Shown here: positions 1,469-7,743 of the stretch, piece after piece
Position numbering within the stretch: position 1 is the stretch's first letter
How the letters are laid out: the number at the start of each line of letters is the position of its first letter
DNA from: an uncultured Lachnospiraceae bacterium
GTDB lineage: Bacteria > Bacillota > Clostridia > Lachnospirales > Lachnospiraceae
Reading direction: 5' to 3'
DNA: 10,284 nucleotides
NCBI GenBank assembly: GCA_947068385.1
Contig: CAMTBF010000087.1
Coordinates: forward strand, 1-10,284
Made by a program: the position numbers and the translations under genes
The notes under the pieces: generated by a model
Seen by the model: the letters and a program-made list of their open reading frames with translations, nothing else
Told to the model about the DNA's origin: nothing
Database searches by the model: none

Positions 1469-2326
1469 ATGCTGCATCTGGCCATATGCGATGACGACAA
1501 AAGGTTCCTGGAATATCTGTCCCGAGAGATTGAATGCTGGGCGATGGAATGTGAGCACTCCATGGAAGAAAAGCACTCCGCAGAAATGGAAGAAAAGCAT
1601 TCCATGGAAGAAAGGCCAGCCATGGCAGAAAGGCATTCCACGACAAAGGAGTTGGCGTGCAGCGTGGAGCTGTACCCTTCCGCGGATGCCTTTCTGTTCG
1701 CCTGGGAAGAGAGGAAAGATACGGACATCCTGCTCCTGGACATCGAGATGCCGGGGACGGACGGCATGGCGCTGGCGAGGAAGCTGCGGCAGATGGGAAA
1801 ACCCGTCAGCATCATCTTCGTCACAGGCAATCCGGACTTCGCGCTGGAGGGATACGACCTGGAAGCCGTGTCCTACATCGTAAAGCCCGTGAAAAGACAG
1901 CGCCTGTGGGCAGCGCTTGACAGGGCCAGGGAACGGGTCTCCGGCAGGGCGGCAATATTGGCGCCGCTGTTCGGCGGGGAGATGGAGAAGGTGTACGTGT
2001 CGGACATCTGCTGCCTGGAGGGAGACGGGCATGACTGCATCCTCTGGAAAAGGGACGGAGAGAAGCTGATCTGCAAATCCGGTATCCGGCAGATAGAACA
2101 GGAGCTGATGGAAAAGGGGCATTCCACAGAAGAGGAGCGTTCCAGGCCATGCGGCAGCTCTTTTTTCAAGCCCCACAGGTCTTACTGCATCAACCTGGAG
2201 CATGTGGAGCGGATCGGGAAGAAGGAAATCCGGATGGACAACCGGATGACAGTCCCCATCGCCAGAGGAAAATGGGAGGAGCTGAGCCGAGCCTATATGG
2301 ATTACTTCCGCAGGCAGAGCTTCTGA
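1469..2326 (+). CDS. LytTR-family response regulator (AgrA/VirR-like) with repeat insertions
   Basis: A transcription factor of 285 residues: N-terminal receiver domain (about 1-150) and C-terminal LytTR DNA-binding domain (about 170-282). Receiver residues are all present: acidic pocket D8-D10, phosphoacceptor D91 in LLLDIEMPGTDG, T119 in FVTG and K139 in VKP. The LytTR part carries the typical FFKPHRSYCINLEHV block (232-246). The ATG at 1469 is preferred over the in-frame ATG at 1421 because it follows GGAG at 1456-1459 at 9 bases and the protein then begins exactly at the receiver beta-1 strand (MLHLAICDDD). The spacing from D8 to D91 is about 30 residues longer than normal, because residues 28-59 are an HSMEE-type insertion encoded by an 18-nt tandem repeat. 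A second small insertion (about 216-230) sits in a LytTR loop. The partner is the kinase gene 92 bases downstream. Target promoters are unknown. Confidence 0.92.
   Translation: MLHLAICDDDKRFLEYLSREIECWAMECEHSMEEKHSAEMEEKHSMEERPAMAERHSTTKELACSVELYPSADAFLFAWEERKDTDILLLDIEMPGTDGMALARKLRQMGKPVSIIFVTGNPDFALEGYDLEAVSYIVKPVKRQRLWAALDRARERVSGRAAILAPLFGGEMEKVYVSDICCLEGDGHDCILWKRDGEKLICKSGIRQIEQELMEKGHSTEEERSRPCGSSFFKPHRSYCINLEHVERIGKKEIRMDNRMTVPIARGKWEELSRAYMDYFRRQSF
1550..1645 (+). repeat. 18-nt tandem repeat array inside the response regulator, five units
   Basis: Five 18-base units run in phase with the codons: 1550-1567, 1568-1585, 1592-1609, 1610-1627 and 1628-1645, with a 6-base spacer ATGGAA at 1586-1591. 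The best unit is GAAAAGCATTCCATGGAA. Translation gives successive variants of E-K-H-S-M-E between receiver helix 1 and strand 2. The array contains the perfect palindrome TTCCATGGAA at 1600-1609. The last unit shares GAAAGGCATTCCA exactly with 5866-5878. Confidence 0.9.
2114..2149 (+). repeat. two degenerate units of the 18-nt repeat in the LytTR domain
   Basis: Units 2114-2131 (AAGGGGCATTCCACAGAA) and 2132-2149 (GAGGAGCGTTCCAGGCCA) match the consensus around CATTCC and keep the regulator's reading frame. They encode KGHSTEEERSRP, located just before the conserved FFKPHRSY block, where LytTR proteins usually have a short loop. Confidence 0.65.
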
Positions 2327-2349
2327 CCTGGGCGGAAAGGGCTGTGGAA

Positions 2350-2409
2350 ACAGAGCATTCCATGGAAAGCAAAGAGGAATATTCCGGGAAAGTGGGTATT
2401 CCAGGAGGA
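2350..2409 (+). repeat. 18-nt repeat units in the kinase leader, including its Shine-Dalgarno site
   Basis: Units at 2350-2367 (ACAGAGCATTCCATGGAA), 2374-2391 (GAGGAATATTCCGGGAAA) and 2392-2409 (GTGGGTATTCCAGGAGGA) lie between the regulator stop at 2326 and the kinase ATG at 2419. The first carries TTCCATGGAA at 2358-2367. The third supplies most of the AGGAGGAG Shine-Dalgarno sequence at 2403-2410. The second and third units are degenerate, so their assignment is less certain than that of the first. Confidence 0.65.
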
Positions 2410-2418
2410 GAAAGCAGC

Positions 2419-3636
2419 ATGCTGCGACTGGGAGCCTGGCTGATATGGCTGGCATTGTATCAATATTACCTGGAGCGAATCTGCGATTTCGAAAAAGGGA
2501 AGATAAGGCGAATCGCAGTCTGGGGAATCACAGGCGGCACGGCGCTGGCTGTATGGATTGCGCAGCTGCTCATACCTAACCTGAAGCCTGCTGCCGGGAG
2601 ATGGCTGACGCTTGCGGGCTGGCTTTTGATTATGATGGTGTCTTTTTTGTATGTGCTGTTTTACGATGGAATCCCCCTGGGGCAGCAATGGTGGAAAGTG
2701 CTGGCCCCAGGGCTTATGCTGCTACCGGGAGTGCTTGCGGATAACCCTGTTTGGGTGGTGCTGGCAAATGGAGCGGTGACGGCGGCGTTCCTACTAATAT
2801 TGACAGGCGCGAATGGGCGCGGAGATTTCCGCGGAAAAGGGGCTTTGAGCCTGGCGAATATTGCTGTCTACGGAATCCTGAGCCTTTATCTATGGAAAAT
2901 CAGGGACATCGCCGATTCATGGACGCTGCTTGGCTTCCTGGCGGTGGAGCTGCTGGTGTTCCTGTCCCTGGAGGGGACATTCTTTTCCTACCATCAGGGA
3001 TTTGAGGCCCGGACTGAGCGCTTCCAGCGGGATATCCTGAGCCATCAGTATGAGGAGGTGAAGGAGATCTACCTGAACATGCGGGGCTGGCGGCATGATT
3101 ACCACAACCATCTCCAGGCCATGAAGGCCCAGATCGCCTCGGGGCAGATGGAGGAGATGAAGCAGTATCTGGACGAACTGGAGCGGAACCTGGACAAGGT
3201 GGACACCTATGTGAAATCCGGCAACCTGATGACGGACGCCATCCTGAACAGCAAGCTGTCCCTGGCGGAGCAGAAGGGCATCCGGGTGAACTGCAGGGCC
3301 ATCCTGCCGGGGGAGCTGACCGTGGAGGACGTGGATCTGTGCGTGCTGCTGGGCAACCTCCTGGACAATGCCCTGGAGGCCTGTGAGAAGATTCCGGAAG
3401 ACCAGAGATTCCTGCGCATCTACATGGTGGTGAACAGATCCCAGCTCTATATCTCCGTCCAGAACTCCGCCAGGGAGGAGCTGGATTTCAACGAAAGGAA
3501 CTACATTTCCACCAAGCGCGGGAACCACGGGCTGGGCATGAAGCGGGTCAGGGCGCTGGCGGACAAATATGACGGATACCTGACACTGGCCAATGAACCG
3601 GGCATCTTCGCGGCGGAGGTGACGCTGCCGCTATAA
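2419..3636 (+). CDS. GHKL-domain sensor histidine kinase (AgrC-like)
   Basis: A membrane sensor of 405 residues, expected to phosphorylate the upstream LytTR regulator. The first ~190 residues contain about six hydrophobic segments (roughly 1-18, 31-52, 62-82, 95-130, 143-160, 168-188) with no large extracellular domain, as in peptide-sensing AgrC-type kinases. A coiled region leads into the H-box WRHDYHNHL with likely phosphoacceptor H226, followed by a dimerisation helix. The ATPase has an N-box LLGNLLDNALEA (N313, D316, N317) and a G-box GNHGLGM (368-374). The start at 2419 is chosen because AGGAGGAG (2403-2410) lies 8 bases upstream and the first membrane segment begins immediately. The frame is open upstream to 2149, but that extension overlaps the regulator gene and is not convincing; an ATG at 2362 lies inside a repeat unit. 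The ligand is unknown and no adjacent peptide gene was found. Confidence 0.92.
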   Translation: MLRLGAWLIWLALYQYYLERICDFEKGKIRRIAVWGITGGTALAVWIAQLLIPNLKPAAGRWLTLAGWLLIMMVSFLYVLFYDGIPLGQQWWKVLAPGLMLLPGVLADNPVWVVLANGAVTAAFLLILTGANGRGDFRGKGALSLANIAVYGILSLYLWKIRDIADSWTLLGFLAVELLVFLSLEGTFFSYHQGFEARTERFQRDILSHQYEEVKEIYLNMRGWRHDYHNHLQAMKAQIASGQMEEMKQYLDELERNLDKVDTYVKSGNLMTDAILNSKLSLAEQKGIRVNCRAILPGELTVEDVDLCVLLGNLLDNALEACEKIPEDQRFLRIYMVVNRSQLYISVQNSAREELDFNERNYISTKRGNHGLGMKRVRALADKYDGYLTLANEPGIFAAEVTLPL

Positions 3637-3709
3637 GACGCGATTGTCTCCTTTTTCGCGACAGCCTCTCTGACGACAGCGGTAACGCGCCCCTGTGCAA
3701 TTCGCGTCT
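3636..3709 (+). promoter_or_regulatory. possible structured 3' untranslated region after the kinase gene
   Basis: AGACGCGA (3636-3643) can pair with TCGCGTCT (3702-3709) in an 8-bp outer stem. Inside, CGCG at 3657-3660 can pair with CGCG at 3686-3689, and the heptamer CGACAGC occurs twice (3658-3664 and 3674-3680). No ORF with a start codon is visible here. The region is transcribed just before the terminator and could be an RNA structure or the body of a small RNA. Pairing was found by eye only. Confidence 0.3.
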
Positions 3710-3729
3710 CAAAATCGACATTTCGTGCG

Positions 3730-3756
3730 AAAATCCCCTTTTCGGGGGATTTTTTT
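3730..3756 (+). terminator. intrinsic (Rho-independent) terminator of the pepT-regulator-kinase unit
   Basis: AAAATCCCC (3730-3738) pairs with GGGGATTTT (3745-3753) around a 6-base loop TTTTCG, followed by continued Ts to 3756. It lies 93 bases after the kinase stop codon and directly before the ABC transporter genes, separating the two groups into different transcription units or allowing partial read-through. Confidence 0.85.
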
Positions 3757-3812
3757 CTATGATAGAATTGTCAACGGGATCCCGAAAAAGGATGGAGGTA
3801 TACAGGAAAGAT

Positions 3813-5825
3813 ATGAGCAGAAATGGAAGAGGAGCATTCCATGGAAGAAGAACATTCCATGAAAGAGGAGCATTCCAAGGAAGAAGGGCGCTCCGGGGAA
3901 AGGAAGCTTCGCAGGAATCAAGTGAAAAAAGTTATTTTTTATGGGACAACTGCAGGACAGCCCTCGCCTGGTTCGCGCAGACCATGGGAGGAGGATATCT
4001 GGCGACCACAGGGGCGGCCATATGCCTGTCCGTGGCACAGCCCTTTGCGGCCATGGCCCTGCCCAGCGCGGTGGTCTATCTGCTGGGAAGCGGCTGGAGG
4101 CCGGAATTCATCTTCCTGTCCCTGGCAGGCTATGTGCTTGCCCTGCAGATGCTGCAGATATCCCAGAGCTACCTGTCCGGCATGGCGAAGAAATCCAGAT
4201 TCCTGTTCCGCGGCCTGCTGGGCACGGATTTCTTCGAGGCCTGCCTGACGGCGGACTTTCAGGAGCTGGAGACCGCCAGGGGCCAGCGGAAGCTGGAGGG
4301 AGCCAGGGAAAACGTCTATAACGGCGAGGGAACCGGAATCGAAGCATATCTCTCAGGATTTGAGAAAGCAGCCACCGCGCTGGGGAGCCTGCTCATCTAT
4401 TCGGCCATCGTGGGCAGGATGAGCCCTTTGCTTCTCCTGCTCCTGCTTGCCGCTGCCGGAGCTGGCTTGGCGGCCAACATCTATGCAGACCGCAGGGGCG
4501 CCAGGCATGAGGAGCGCTACATCCAGGCGAGCCAGGGATACGAGTATCTGAAGCGGGAGGTGCTGGCTCCGGCAAACGGCAAGGATATCCGGCTGTACCG
4601 CCTGTGGACATGGTTTCAGGAGGAATTCGGGAAAATGACCAAGGAGCTGGCCTACTGGACAGGCAGACAGAAGGGCTGCGCCATCAACGCCTCGCTTTTC
4701 GAACGCGTGCTGGCCGCCATAAGAGATCTGCTGGTCTACGGCTACCTGATTCGCCAGCTGGCCCTGGGAAGGATGAGCCTGTCCGCCTTTCTGCTCTACA
4801 TTGGAATCGTGGCCGGCTTCGGGGGCTGGATGAGATCCCTGTCGGAGGCCTTTGCGGAGATACTGCGCAACAACCGGTACATGAACCGCTATCGGGATTT
4901 CCTGGAATTCGCGGAAGGAAGGCCCGGGCAGGAGGGAGCCACATGGAAGGAGAGCGTTTCCGGACAGGCTCCCGGAAAGAGAAGATCGCCACAACAAAAA
5001 GTGAATATTTCAGAGCGGATTCCCATGGAACACCCGGGAAAGGCCCATGAGATCCGCCTGGAGCATGTATCGTTCCGCTATGAGGGGAATGACCAGGATA
5101 CGATCCATGACCTGACGCTGACCATCCGCCCCGGCGAGAAAATCGCCCTGGTGGGATTGAACGGAGCCGGAAAATCCACGCTGGTCAAGCTGATCTGCGG
5201 GCTGTACCGCCCCTCTTCCGGGAAAATATACCTGGACGGACAGGATGCATCCCTGTTTTCACCGGAAGAATACCGGAAAGAGTTCGCGGTGGTATTCCAG
5301 GAGGTGTTCGCCTTTTCCTTTCCGCTGGCCGACAACGTCTCCTGCAGGGCAGCCCGGGAGACGGACGGCAGGCGGCTGGAGCAGAGCCTGAAGGACGCGG
5401 ACCTGTGGGACAGAGTGCAGGAGCTTGCAAAGCGGGAAGACACCTACCTGAACAAGGATCTGGACGCTACGGGCGTGACATTGTCCGGCGGGGAGCTCCA
5501 GCGGCTGATGCTGGCCAGGGCCCTCTACAAGGCCGCGCCCGTGGTCATCCTGGACGAGCCCACCGCGGCCCTGGATTCCATTGCGGAGAGCCATATGTAC
5601 GAAAAATATCATGAGATGACCAAAGACAGGACAAGCATCTTCATCTCCCACAGGCTCAGCTCCACCAGGTTCTGCCACCGCATCCTGTACATGGAAAAAG
5701 GAGCAGTCCTGGAGGAGGGCAGCCACGGCCGGCTGATGGAGAGGAATGGGGCCTATGCCGCCATGTTCCACGCCCAGGCACAATACTACGAAAAGGAACA
5801 GAACAGCGGGGAGAGCCTGCTCTGA
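3813..5825 (+). CDS. ABC transporter, fused permease and ATPase half-molecule (first of pair)
   Basis: An exporter-type half transporter of 670 residues from this start. Membrane segments cover roughly residues 45-345, followed by a cytoplasmic ATPase with Walker A GLNGAGKST (448-456), Q-loop Q496, signature LSGGE (557-561), Walker B VVILDE with catalytic E582, and switch histidine H613 in ISHRLSS. A Lys/Ser-rich linker of about 45 residues joins the domains. The start is uncertain. ATG 3813 has AGGA 5 bases upstream and GGAGG at 3794-3798. ATG 3792 has poor spacing. ATG 3759 lies at the end of the terminator T-tract. Residues about 7-32 are encoded by the 18-nt repeat, read in a different frame (GAFHGR) from the one used in the regulator. 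A single-base frameshift near 3925-3940 is possible. The second half-transporter begins 37 bases downstream. Substrate unknown; a peptide is plausible from the context. Confidence 0.9.
   Translation: MSRNGRGAFHGRRTFHERGAFQGRRALRGKEASQESSEKSYFLWDNCRTALAWFAQTMGGGYLATTGAAICLSVAQPFAAMALPSAVVYLLGSGWRPEFIFLSLAGYVLALQMLQISQSYLSGMAKKSRFLFRGLLGTDFFEACLTADFQELETARGQRKLEGARENVYNGEGTGIEAYLSGFEKAATALGSLLIYSAIVGRMSPLLLLLLLAAAGAGLAANIYADRRGARHEERYIQASQGYEYLKREVLAPANGKDIRLYRLWTWFQEEFGKMTKELAYWTGRQKGCAINASLFERVLAAIRDLLVYGYLIRQLALGRMSLSAFLLYIGIVAGFGGWMRSLSEAFAEILRNNRYMNRYRDFLEFAEGRPGQEGATWKESVSGQAPGKRRSPQQKVNISERIPMEHPGKAHEIRLEHVSFRYEGNDQDTIHDLTLTIRPGEKIALVGLNGAGKSTLVKLICGLYRPSSGKIYLDGQDASLFSPEEYRKEFAVVFQEVFAFSFPLADNVSCRAARETDGRRLEQSLKDADLWDRVQELAKREDTYLNKDLDATGVTLSGGELQRLMLARALYKAAPVVILDEPTAALDSIAESHMYEKYHEMTKDRTSIFISHRLSSTRFCHRILYMEKGAVLEEGSHGRLMERNGAYAAMFHAQAQYYEKEQNSGESLL
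3829..3900 (+). repeat. four-unit 18-nt tandem repeat at the start of the first ABC gene
   Basis: Four contiguous units: 3829-3846 GAGGAGCATTCCATGGAA, 3847-3864 GAAGAACATTCCATGAAA, 3865-3882 GAGGAGCATTCCAAGGAA and 3883-3900 GAAGGGCGCTCCGGGGAA. A half unit ATGGAA precedes at 3823-3828. Divergence increases from left to right. The first unit carries TTCCATGGAA at 3837-3846. The ABC frame reads it as G-A-F-H-G-R; the frame beginning at 3823 reads it as E-E-H-S-M-E, the same as in the regulator. Confidence 0.93.
5013..5030 (+). repeat. possible decayed repeat unit in the ABC interdomain linker
   Basis: GAGCGGATTCCCATGGAA resembles the 18-nt consensus, with small insertions around ATTCC and ATGGAA. 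It encodes ERIPME in the linker between the membrane and ATPase domains, a place that tolerates insertions. A single weak copy could be chance. Confidence 0.25.
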
Positions 5826-5862
5826 AATCCCGCACAAAATAAACGGAAAGAGAGGAATCCCC

Positions 5863-5880
5863 ATGGAAAGGCATTCCAAC
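5863..5880 (+). repeat. single repeat unit overlapping the start codon of the second ABC gene
   Basis: ATGGAAAGGCATTCCAAC includes the 13-mer GAAAGGCATTCCA (5866-5878), identical to 1628-1640 in the regulator's array. Here it supplies codons 2-6, and the ATGGAA half of the motif supplies the start codon. Confidence 0.6.
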
Positions 5881-7743
5881 CACAGAACACTCCAAAAGCT
5901 CACGAAATCCCTGGAATACCACAAAACAGGGCTGGAGCTGCTAAAGCTCGTCCACAAGGTAGACCAGGCAGCCATCCCCCTGCGGATCATCAACAGCGTG
6001 CTGAAGGTATCCGGCGCATACCTGAGCCTGTACCTGACGGCAGGACTGATCGACGCTTTGCTTTCAGGGCACTTCCGGCAGGGCCTGTACCATGCCTGCG
6101 CCATAGTGGCTTCCGGCCTGCTCTTCGGCCTATCCGCCGGGCTGCTGGAAAAGGCATACGCAAAATCCGCCCAGCGCTGTACCCTGAACTTTGCCGTCAT
6201 GATGCGGGAGAAGACCGCTTCCCTGGATTACGAGACCATGGAGCAGCCCCAGGTGTCGGACAAGATATACAACTCCGAGCGCACCGCCCAGATTTATGGC
6301 GGCCTGGGCGCCGTGGCGGACAATTACCAGGGGATGCTGTCGGCGCTGCTGGAAATCGTGGGGGCAGTGGCCATGATCGCCGCCCTGTGCCTCAGCCGCC
6401 CCACGGCCCGGGGATCCGTGCTCTCCCTTGCGGCCCAACCGGCAGTGTCCGCACTGCTGCTGCTCATCTTCCTATGCCTCACCGTCATGATCAGGGCAAA
6501 GCAGAGCTCCGGCATAGTGAAGAATTCGGAGAGCACCATCCAGGAATACACCGGAACGCAGATGCAGCTGAACTACCTGCTGTCCAGAGTGATGATGAAC
6601 CTCCAGGCGGCAAAGGTGATACGCCTCTACGACATGAAGGAAATGCTGGTGGACAACATCCGGAAATGCAATGAGAGGAGCGAGCGCCTGTTCGGCAGGA
6701 TGTGGGATACGGAAATCAAAGGCGGGCTGCGGGTGAACCTGGTCAACGGCTTCTTCACCCTGTTTAGCTACCTCTTTGTAGCTGTGAAGGCCCTGGCGGG
6801 AGCCATCACCATAGGAGCCTTTACCCAGTACGCGGGAGCCATGGTAAAGCTGTCCGGGGGCCTGCAGGGCGTCACATGGCACAGCACAGTGATCAAGATT
6901 ACCAGCGTCTACATGGAGGATTTCCTGAACCTGATGAAGATGGAGAGCGCCCATGCAAAGGGCACCATTCCCGTGGAGAAGCGCCTGGACGGAGAGTACG
7001 AGATAGAATTCAGGGACGTGAGCTTCCATTATCCGGGCAGTGAGGAAATGATCCTAAAGCATGTGAGCTGCAAGCTCACCGTGAAGGACAGGCTGGCGCT
7101 GGTGGGAAAGAACGGCGCGGGCAAGACCACCTTCGTAAAGCTCCTGTGCAGGCTCTATGAGCCCACGGAAGGGGTCATCACCCTGAACGGCATCGACATC
7201 CGCAAATACCGGGAGGAGGAGTACAGAGAGCTGTTCGGCGTGGTGTTCCAGGACTTCAGGCTCTTCGCCTTCCCCCTCTGGCAGAACCTGGCGGCAGGGT
7301 ACGAGAGGGACGAGGAGAAGGTCCGGGACAGCCTGAAGCGGGCCGGAGCCTGGGACTTCGTGGAAAAGCTCCCCCAGGGAATGGACACGCAGCTGTTCAA
7401 GGACAGGGAGGGCGGCGTAGACATCAGCGGCGGAGAGGCCCAGAAGCTGGCGCTGGCCAGGGCCCTGTACAAGGACGCGCCTTTCGTGGTCCTGGACGAG
7501 CCCACCGCTGCCCTGGACCCCATCAGCGAGGCCAAAGTCTACGCCAGCTTCCACGAGATGGTGCGGGACAAGACAGCCATCTACATTTCCCACCGCATGG
7601 CCAGCTGCCGCTTCTGCGATGACATCATCGTATTCGAAGACGGACAGATAGTAGAGCGCGGCAGCCACGAGGAGCTCCTGAAAAGACAGGGCCAGTACGC
7701 CGGGATGTGGCATGCCCAGGCGAAGTACTATGTGGAGGCTTAG
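5863..7743 (+). CDS. ABC transporter, fused permease and ATPase half-molecule (second of pair)
   Basis: A half transporter of 626 residues. The membrane domain spans about 35-350, with hydrophobic stretches near 40-66, 75-95, 158-176, 193-210 and 295-325. The ATPase has Walker A GKNGAGKTT (415-423), Q-loop Q463, signature ISGGE (521-525), Walker B FVVLDE with E546 and switch H577 in ISHRMAS. The start at 5863 follows AGAGGA (5851-5856) at 6 bases; the frame stays open upstream to 5746, but that part overlaps the first ABC gene. The first codons (MERHSN) match the 18-nt repeat. Both ABC proteins share the C-terminal block DEPTAALD...ISHR...HAQA.YY, supporting a common origin and a heterodimer. 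Both ATP sites look catalytically competent. The coding end overlaps the convergent rhamnosidase gene by 4 bases. Substrate unknown. Confidence 0.94.
   Translation: MERHSNHRTLQKLTKSLEYHKTGLELLKLVHKVDQAAIPLRIINSVLKVSGAYLSLYLTAGLIDALLSGHFRQGLYHACAIVASGLLFGLSAGLLEKAYAKSAQRCTLNFAVMMREKTASLDYETMEQPQVSDKIYNSERTAQIYGGLGAVADNYQGMLSALLEIVGAVAMIAALCLSRPTARGSVLSLAAQPAVSALLLLIFLCLTVMIRAKQSSGIVKNSESTIQEYTGTQMQLNYLLSRVMMNLQAAKVIRLYDMKEMLVDNIRKCNERSERLFGRMWDTEIKGGLRVNLVNGFFTLFSYLFVAVKALAGAITIGAFTQYAGAMVKLSGGLQGVTWHSTVIKITSVYMEDFLNLMKMESAHAKGTIPVEKRLDGEYEIEFRDVSFHYPGSEEMILKHVSCKLTVKDRLALVGKNGAGKTTFVKLLCRLYEPTEGVITLNGIDIRKYREEEYRELFGVVFQDFRLFAFPLWQNLAAGYERDEEKVRDSLKRAGAWDFVEKLPQGMDTQLFKDREGGVDISGGEAQKLALARALYKDAPFVVLDEPTAALDPISEAKVYASFHEMVRDKTAIYISHRMASCRFCDDIIVFEDGQIVERGSHEELLKRQGQYAGMWHAQAKYYVEA

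Follow-up and report, generated by a model that had tools for sequence, protein, structure and literature searches.

A dispersed 18-nucleotide tandem repeat, found mainly inside genes, in an uncultured Lachnospiraceae bacterium and its relatives

The stretch of DNA analysed here (the window: 10,284 nucleotides, positions 1 to 10,284 of contig CAMTBF010000087.1, assembly GCA_947068385.1) comes from an uncultured Lachnospiraceae bacterium whose genus is most likely Acetatifactor. The window encodes a response regulator, a histidine kinase and two ATP-binding cassette (ABC) transporter proteins, together with an M20 peptidase, which we read as peptidase T-like, and an alpha-L-rhamnosidase. The regulatory and transport part of this locus carries copies of an 18-nt repeat unit, ATGGAA-GARRRGCATTCC (R = A or G), with the consensus GARRRGCATTCCATGGAA. 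Each unit contains or approaches the 10-nt palindrome TTCCATGGAA and can fold as a 6-bp hairpin (ATGGAA...TTCCAT), and an extra ATGGAA usually opens the arrays at their left boundary. Genes and repeats are arranged as follows.

1469 to 2326, plus strand: response regulator gene (Response_reg and LytTR domains), carrying arrays A and B.
1544 to 1645, plus strand: array A, an ATGGAA boundary (1544-1549) followed by about five units, some of them degenerate.
2108 to 2149, plus strand: array B, an ATGGAA boundary and two degenerate units, in frame in the LytTR DNA-binding domain.
2350 to 2409, plus strand: array C, with a single good unit (2350-2367) besides degenerate ones, located in the spacer that separates the response regulator from the histidine kinase.
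2419 to 3636, plus strand: histidine kinase gene (GHKL domain / SpoOB-type).
3759 to 5825, plus strand: ABC transporter gene 1, an open reading frame of uncertain start.
3823 to 3900, plus strand: array D, an ATGGAA boundary and four units, at the 5' end of the first ABC gene.
5013 to 5030, plus strand: single weak unit (10.7 bits in the weight matrix) in a linker of the first ABC protein, which may be a chance match.
5863 to 7743, plus strand: ABC transporter gene 2.
5863 to 5877, plus strand: 15-nt version of the repeat, ATGGAAAGGCATTCC (ATGGAA AGGCATTCC), seen by direct inspection of the sequence and likely the start of the second ABC gene.

A scan of the window allowing at most 3 mismatches found five units (starting at 1592, 2350, 3829, 3847 and 3865), where shuffled sequences lead one to expect 0.01, and Tandem Repeats Finder independently reported period-18 arrays at 1554-1640 and 3823-3884. 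A weight matrix added more degenerate units in 1550-1645 and 2114-2149 and the weak unit at 5013-5030; the 15-nt version at 5863-5877 falls below its threshold and was not reported by it. An earlier note on this DNA had listed five places carrying the repeat as arrays or single copies. All five exist where it put them; in detail, however, 2350-2409 holds only one good unit besides degenerate ones, the copy at 5863 is 15 nt long, and the unit at 5013-5030 had been passed over. The same note had described the repeat as seeded through this one locus. It is instead dispersed genome-wide: the host assembly (G000; 3.78 Mb, 581 contigs, 89.5% complete) contains 73 matches to the 18-mer against 1 for a reversed-pattern control, so that the enrichment elsewhere in the genome that the note had called for was found, and likewise in some other species of the genus. 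Two close relatives, G047 and G026, whose M20 peptidases are 94 and 95% identical to that of the host (other matches reach at most 79%, and 21 of 61 genomes have none), contain 96 and 105 matches, each against 3 for the control.

To describe the arrays, loci of these three genomes, those of G026 from among the places listed, were fetched because they hold the motif, which means that per-genome totals come from the whole-genome counts only. In the 1.11 Mb of fetched sequence the weight matrix found 419 units of at least 10 bits, against 6 in the reversed sequence. Of 235 arrays, 68 are weak single units with chance matches among them; as some sites are common to G000, G047 and G026, array counts are not all independent events. 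Frame and orientation were counted on the 98 arrays of at least two units, except that the spacer-orientation count adds strong single units and the neighbourhood-orientation count adds single units of at least 18 bits. Genes were called with a crude codon-usage script (coding fraction 0.863), which is not a published gene finder; owing to its calls, some N-terminal arrays are counted as 'intergenic'.

At the level of the genus, 138 genomes were searched with a 30-letter tandem pattern (at most 2 mismatches); tandem copies were found in 17, which have between 1 and 46 matches against a control of zero, and G026 is assigned to this genus. Across the family, a survey of 397 genomes from 334 genera found tandem copies in two, the host and G450, which belongs to a different genus and whose 3 matches lie together (array G450:C57:7728-7829), possibly acquired by gene transfer. 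The exact tandem pattern occurs in 12 stretches of a species-representative collection, all from Lachnospiraceae or Acetatifactor and including Acetatifactor muris DSM 23669. These data indicate that the repeat is a patchy family of one genus. A phage source was also considered and set aside, the search for the exact tandem pattern having found no viral contig that holds it.

That the units are insertions is seen in the response regulator of the window. Array A lies in frame in its receiver domain, between helix 1 and strand 2, and the protein has about 32 extra residues in that domain and 12 in the LytTR domain. The first insert is missing in 9/9 homologues that cover its site and the second in 10/10; some of the 10 homologues have an identity of just 44-50% and are possibly paralogues. 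The tenth is that of G047: its aligned frame starts past the first site, where an array is present but shorter. Relative to G047 the window gains a net 36 nt in the region of array B. The nearest database relatives (P0004, P0005 and P0006) carry first-site inserts of other lengths, whereas P0007-P0013 carry none there; at the second site, a short insert is present in P0007. The comparison of orthologues asked for by the earlier note thus came out in favour of insertion, with other lengths only among the closest relatives. In a structure model of the protein (mean predicted local distance difference test, pLDDT, 83.9; predicted template modelling score, pTM, 0.65; most 10-residue blocks at 81-97), both domains are retained and the inserts appear as the end of a long helix and as loops, partly low-confidence extensions below 50 pLDDT (residues 55-61 and 217-228). 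Array C lies immediately upstream of the likely kinase start (2419), with a net gain of 52 nt relative to G047 over the stretch compared. Array D is read in the GAFHGR frame if 3813 is the translation start; the start codon of this ABC gene is not settled, and the gene caller used put the array outside it. In G047 (locus L113, about 7200-7560), the first ABC gene beside the regulator is apparently down to short remnants, and the response regulator match includes one in-frame TAG.

Other sites show the same behaviour. In MurE, between CLQG and S-V-D, the host protein has 26 additional residues, P0123 (92% identical) has 14 and P0133 has 32, lengths that differ in steps of 6 residues, or 18 nt; 21 of 24 aligned proteins lack an insert at that site. 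At the DNA level, relatives display the empty site. Among 86 orthologous pairs within the fetched loci, the other genome has no unit in 31, and in 10 of these the length difference (array plus 40 nt per side) is a non-zero multiple of 18; the pairs are not all independent and include chance single units. At one intergenic site, G532 (the same assembly as G087, with identical coordinates) has 6 units and G026 has 2, between flanks 97.9 and 95.4% identical, with a spacing of 17 or 19 nt between some units. At one site in a macro-domain protein, the array of A. muris has 12 units and that of strain 526-35 has 4 (L035 and L034). The unit is therefore dispersed genome-wide in head-to-tail arrays that are missing at the same place in many relatives; array length shifts by units between close relatives, and within genes the arrays nearly always add in-frame residues. 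The stem-loop element described below does not account for a difference of 104 nt next to one of the G026 arrays.

How do proteins accommodate these arrays? Genes hold 74 of the 98 multi-unit arrays. Among these 74, 70 are in the sense orientation and 57 are read in the EEHSME frame (frame 0), adding mostly E-[E/K/R/G]-HSME; of the 57, 41 are internal to genes and 13 N-terminal. The remaining frames are also represented (IPWK, AFHG, SMECSS, PWNAP and, in the A. muris macro-domain protein, FHGM, from an additional antisense array), so that all six are seen in use. The earlier note had stressed that the unit is open in all six frames. This is true and by itself unremarkable, as 22% of tandem random 18-mers of 54% GC are equally open; the notable point is the actual use of all six. 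That use is very uneven, with 57 of 74 arrays in one frame, the most hydrophilic of the six. This unevenness indicates that the filter is protein tolerance, beyond the mere lack of stops. Spacing also differs between genes and spacers: steps between units are multiples of 3 in 174 of 177 genic cases and in 37 of 45 intergenic ones (p=0.0002), leaving 3/177 against 8/45 non-triplet steps. Over all steps, spacing is exactly 18 in 200/222 and a multiple of 3 in 211/222, partly by construction: the script that builds the arrays moves in 18-nt steps, both when extending and when filling them, and so favours this spacing.

The hosts named by Pfam include MurE, AnmK, ValS, MetG, a UvrD-type helicase, D-Tyr-tRNA deacylase, MnmA, the macro-domain protein and a cytosine DNA methylase; further hosts are ABC, DUF1015, BlaI-type and OmpR-type proteins. 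A protein search with the repeat region of the BlaI-type protein found two relatives. In L041, a 10-unit array (3750-3929) lies near the N terminus of the C-5 cytosine DNA methylase, and the Pfam domain match of this protein is split over two stretches. Array orientation tracks the host gene, not the neighbourhood: replication-strand orientation was rejected as a cause, with 9 sense arrays among opposite neighbours compared to 2 antisense arrays among co-oriented ones.

The DNA consensus, synonymous positions included, is common to genic frame-0, other-frame, antisense and intergenic arrays, so that conservation does not bear chiefly on the peptide. Within arrays, the variable apex triplet is identical between neighbouring units in 63 of 124 cases (13% expected by chance), as would be expected if one founder seeds array growth. 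The BlaI-type array of G026 (G026:C26:1560, L152) and that of G532 (L243) are near-identical beside the array, and the same purine differs (GAGGAG vs GAGGGG) in four units compared, a concerted change of the apex triplet.

G026 also contains an intergenic element, palindromic and about 92 nt long, that resembles a miniature inverted-repeat transposable element (MITE) and has ends near TATACTCAC and GTCAGTATA. It was seen at loci L124, L126, L129, L131, L132, L135, L137, L138, L153 (for example 4939-4993), L154 and L155. The copies examined comprise 12 full-length ones and one partial; of the full-length copies, 4 have no unit, 5 have one and 3 have two, all at one same point, and one unit lengthens the element by 18 to 20 nt. 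These copies indicate that a single unit can exist as such; alternatively, the same picture would arise if the unit had entered the element once and the filled element had then spread. Rfam gave no match at the element in the 5 of these loci searched and, over 9 sources searched, no match at the repeats; the sole match is a 6S RNA (RF00013, minus strand, 4898-5119) in L131, which adjoins a unit-carrying copy of the element (4858-4801).

We propose that the unit is probably a short tandem repeat, restricted to its lineage and either selfish or neutral, which is copied around the genome and filtered by protein tolerance. A new site would be founded when a unit or a piece of an array is copied into an unrelated place, most likely by a replication-associated or template-switching event aided by the hairpin of the unit; template-switching-like copying as the founding step we put forward tentatively, as somewhat more doubtful than not. 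The array would then grow or shrink through slippage or unequal exchange, and the 92-nt element of G026, having acquired the unit, may carry it as a passenger. Selection would remove frame-breaking insertions, hydrophobic frames in proteins and antisense arrays in transcribed spacers, leaving the observed bias, and no host benefit need be assumed. The earlier note had suggested a mobile or amplifying repeat family of this lineage; presence and absence at orthologous sites and copy-number change bear this out, whereas no transposition machinery was found, and the word mobile would accordingly refer to these sequence comparisons rather than to a mechanism.

Several observations weigh against this explanation. 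The copying step itself was not caught, and we infer it. The insertion sites of 16 pairs are not enriched for the palindrome or for ATGGAA (mean background fraction 0.57 and 0.56), so that neither is retained as a target motif. No Y1 transposase (PF01797) was matched in the host assembly, 89.5% complete as it is, while 20 of 61 genomes have one; nor was a reverse transcriptase, present in 33 of 61. As the host assembly has no match to either, neither appears to be required, and both were dropped as necessary factors. In 21 of the 31 pairs without a unit in the other genome the length difference is not a non-zero multiple of 18; three of these are zero and represent chance matches without insert, and the others have further indels. 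In G532 the control is higher, with 6 reversed matches against 48. Founder variation is centred on three neighbouring positions, 141 of 161 arrays being purine-only there, and since 56 of the 64 possible triplets would stay open in six frames, stop avoidance does not explain this bias. Positions 14, 16 and 17 vary at 0.28, 0.17 and 0.24 in intergenic arrays against 0.12, 0.06 and 0.08 in genic frame-0 arrays, possibly reflecting some coding constraint on genic arrays or a register effect. There is no general compensatory change in the palindrome arms of 429 units: at pair 10-17, 15 double changes were counted where 10.9 are expected, spread over 10 arrays and without exception complementary; pair 11-16 has 3/3 complementary (3.3 expected), and pairs 9-18, 12-15 and 13-14 have 4/11, 0/3 and 6/28. 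Maintenance of the palindrome by compensatory change was thus rejected, there being a slight excess at pair 10-17 and none in general. Finally, in spacers beside co-directional genes, or beside one such gene and a contig end, where the downstream frame closes ahead of the array or inside it, arrays outside the stem-loop element are sense in 16 cases (two of which are one site in two genomes) and antisense in none; inside the element, the same class comprises 4 sense and 3 antisense. While protein tolerance can produce the genic sense bias, it is not obviously the cause of that in spacers. A possible cause would be that antisense arrays yield a pyrimidine-rich RNA favouring early termination.

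A more ambitious version, which we regard as unlikely, makes the 18-nt hairpin unit one of the smallest known elements that copy themselves. A dedicated route of copying, tied to transcription, would then insert it in sense orientation into transcribed DNA and alter the three apex purines, the proteins of the lineage being continually remodelled with a tolerated peptide. The unit could also be a small non-autonomous transposon, moved in trans by a transposase recognising the hairpin or palindrome. A single unit does form a 6-bp hairpin, the palindromic element of G026 carries units, and PF01797 is matched once each in G026 and G059 and twice in G047 (one match weak and with stops). Yet the host assembly has no such match (other transposase families were not searched) and Y1 transposases are common in low-copy genomes; no target motif and, in the alignments inspected, no target duplication was noticed; the arms do not generally covary; 18-nt tandem arrays are unlike single repetitive extragenic palindromic sequences (REPs); and viral contigs have no exact tandem match. 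We consider this origin rather improbable.

The layout of the unit, with the ribosome-binding-like GAGGAG, a 6-nt spacer and ATG GAA, would fit a portable translation-start or regulatory module selected at or upstream of gene starts, and the N-terminal position of 13 of the 57 frame-0 arrays and the 16 to 0 sense bias in spacers agree with it. The internal location of 41 of these arrays, however, together with a purine triplet that varies freely and is often GAAAAG, expected to be a poor ribosome site, weakens this candidate, and the antisense and other-frame arrays have the same profile; it is thus very unlikely. Equally improbable, or slightly more so, is a functional, selected HSMEE-repeat peptide acting for example as a linker or binding tag. 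The share of genic arrays in this frame and the lower variability of three positions in genic arrays speak for it, while the DNA consensus is the same in intergenic, antisense and other-frame arrays, synonymous sites such as position 9 included, close relatives of the host proteins lack the peptide, and the scanned host proteins have no common function. An assembly or binning artefact, or local duplications that arose independently and are alike by chance, might be suspected given the fragmented host assembly (581 contigs). The same family in A. muris DSM 23669 and other assemblies, reversed controls of 0 to 3 (G532 excepted) and units that agree while their flanks are unrelated make this extremely improbable.

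Among known systems, REPs are linked with RAYT (REP-associated tyrosine) transposases. The repeat resembles REPs in being small, hairpin-forming, of high copy number and lineage-restricted. According to one account, REPs are 20-40 bp long, extragenic by name and mostly tagged at one end with GTAG or CGTC (PMC3733652), a tag that is not in the consensus of the unit; furthermore, most multi-unit arrays are genic by our crude caller, and the host has no PF01797 match. Rickettsia palindromic elements are about 150 bp long and lie in frame in unrelated genes (PMC10969869). The comparison with them drawn in the earlier note, as something smaller and tandem, is apt as an analogy: common to both are dispersal, in-frame entry into unrelated genes, a tolerated peptide and absence from relatives. 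The unit differs in its 18 nt as compared with the length given there, its tandem form, length changes by units and its lineage. As to palindromic character, the unit has a 10-nt palindrome and a 6-bp hairpin without general compensatory change; all six frames were found in the Acetatifactor repeat, and the two were compared by behaviour, not sequence. Rickettsia palindromic elements would therefore be the closest described phenomenon by analogy, the unit size setting the repeat outside that family. As in variable-number tandem repeats (VNTRs) or minisatellites, the units are tandem and their copy number varies between close relatives. Mycobacterial interspersed repetitive units (MIRUs) are several times longer and mainly intergenic; the dispersed tandem arrays, variable copy number and sense orientation in operon spacers recall MIRUs and VNTRs, whereas the Acetatifactor repeat lies mainly inside genes. 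Resemblance to MITEs concerns the 92-nt element that carries the unit; for the unit itself, inspection of the alignments, short of a systematic test, revealed no consistent terminal inverted repeats or target-site duplication. Titles and the beginnings of abstracts, covering few subscription papers, contained no description of such a repeat in Acetatifactor or Lachnospiraceae, nor of a dispersed 18-nt tandem family lying mostly inside genes.

If the proposed explanation is true, the repeat would add one more example, seemingly of independent origin, of DNA spreading within protein genes and leaving them unbroken, and its unit is several times smaller than any such gene-tolerated element known to us. 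As a culture-collection strain, A. muris DSM 23669, has the repeat in many genes, with lengths that differ between close relatives, two questions can be put to the test: by what route so short a repeat gets to new sites when no transposase is in evidence, and what amount of added peptide conserved proteins tolerate. For annotation, inserts in conserved Acetatifactor proteins call for caution, as they may be repeat invasions and not functional domains.

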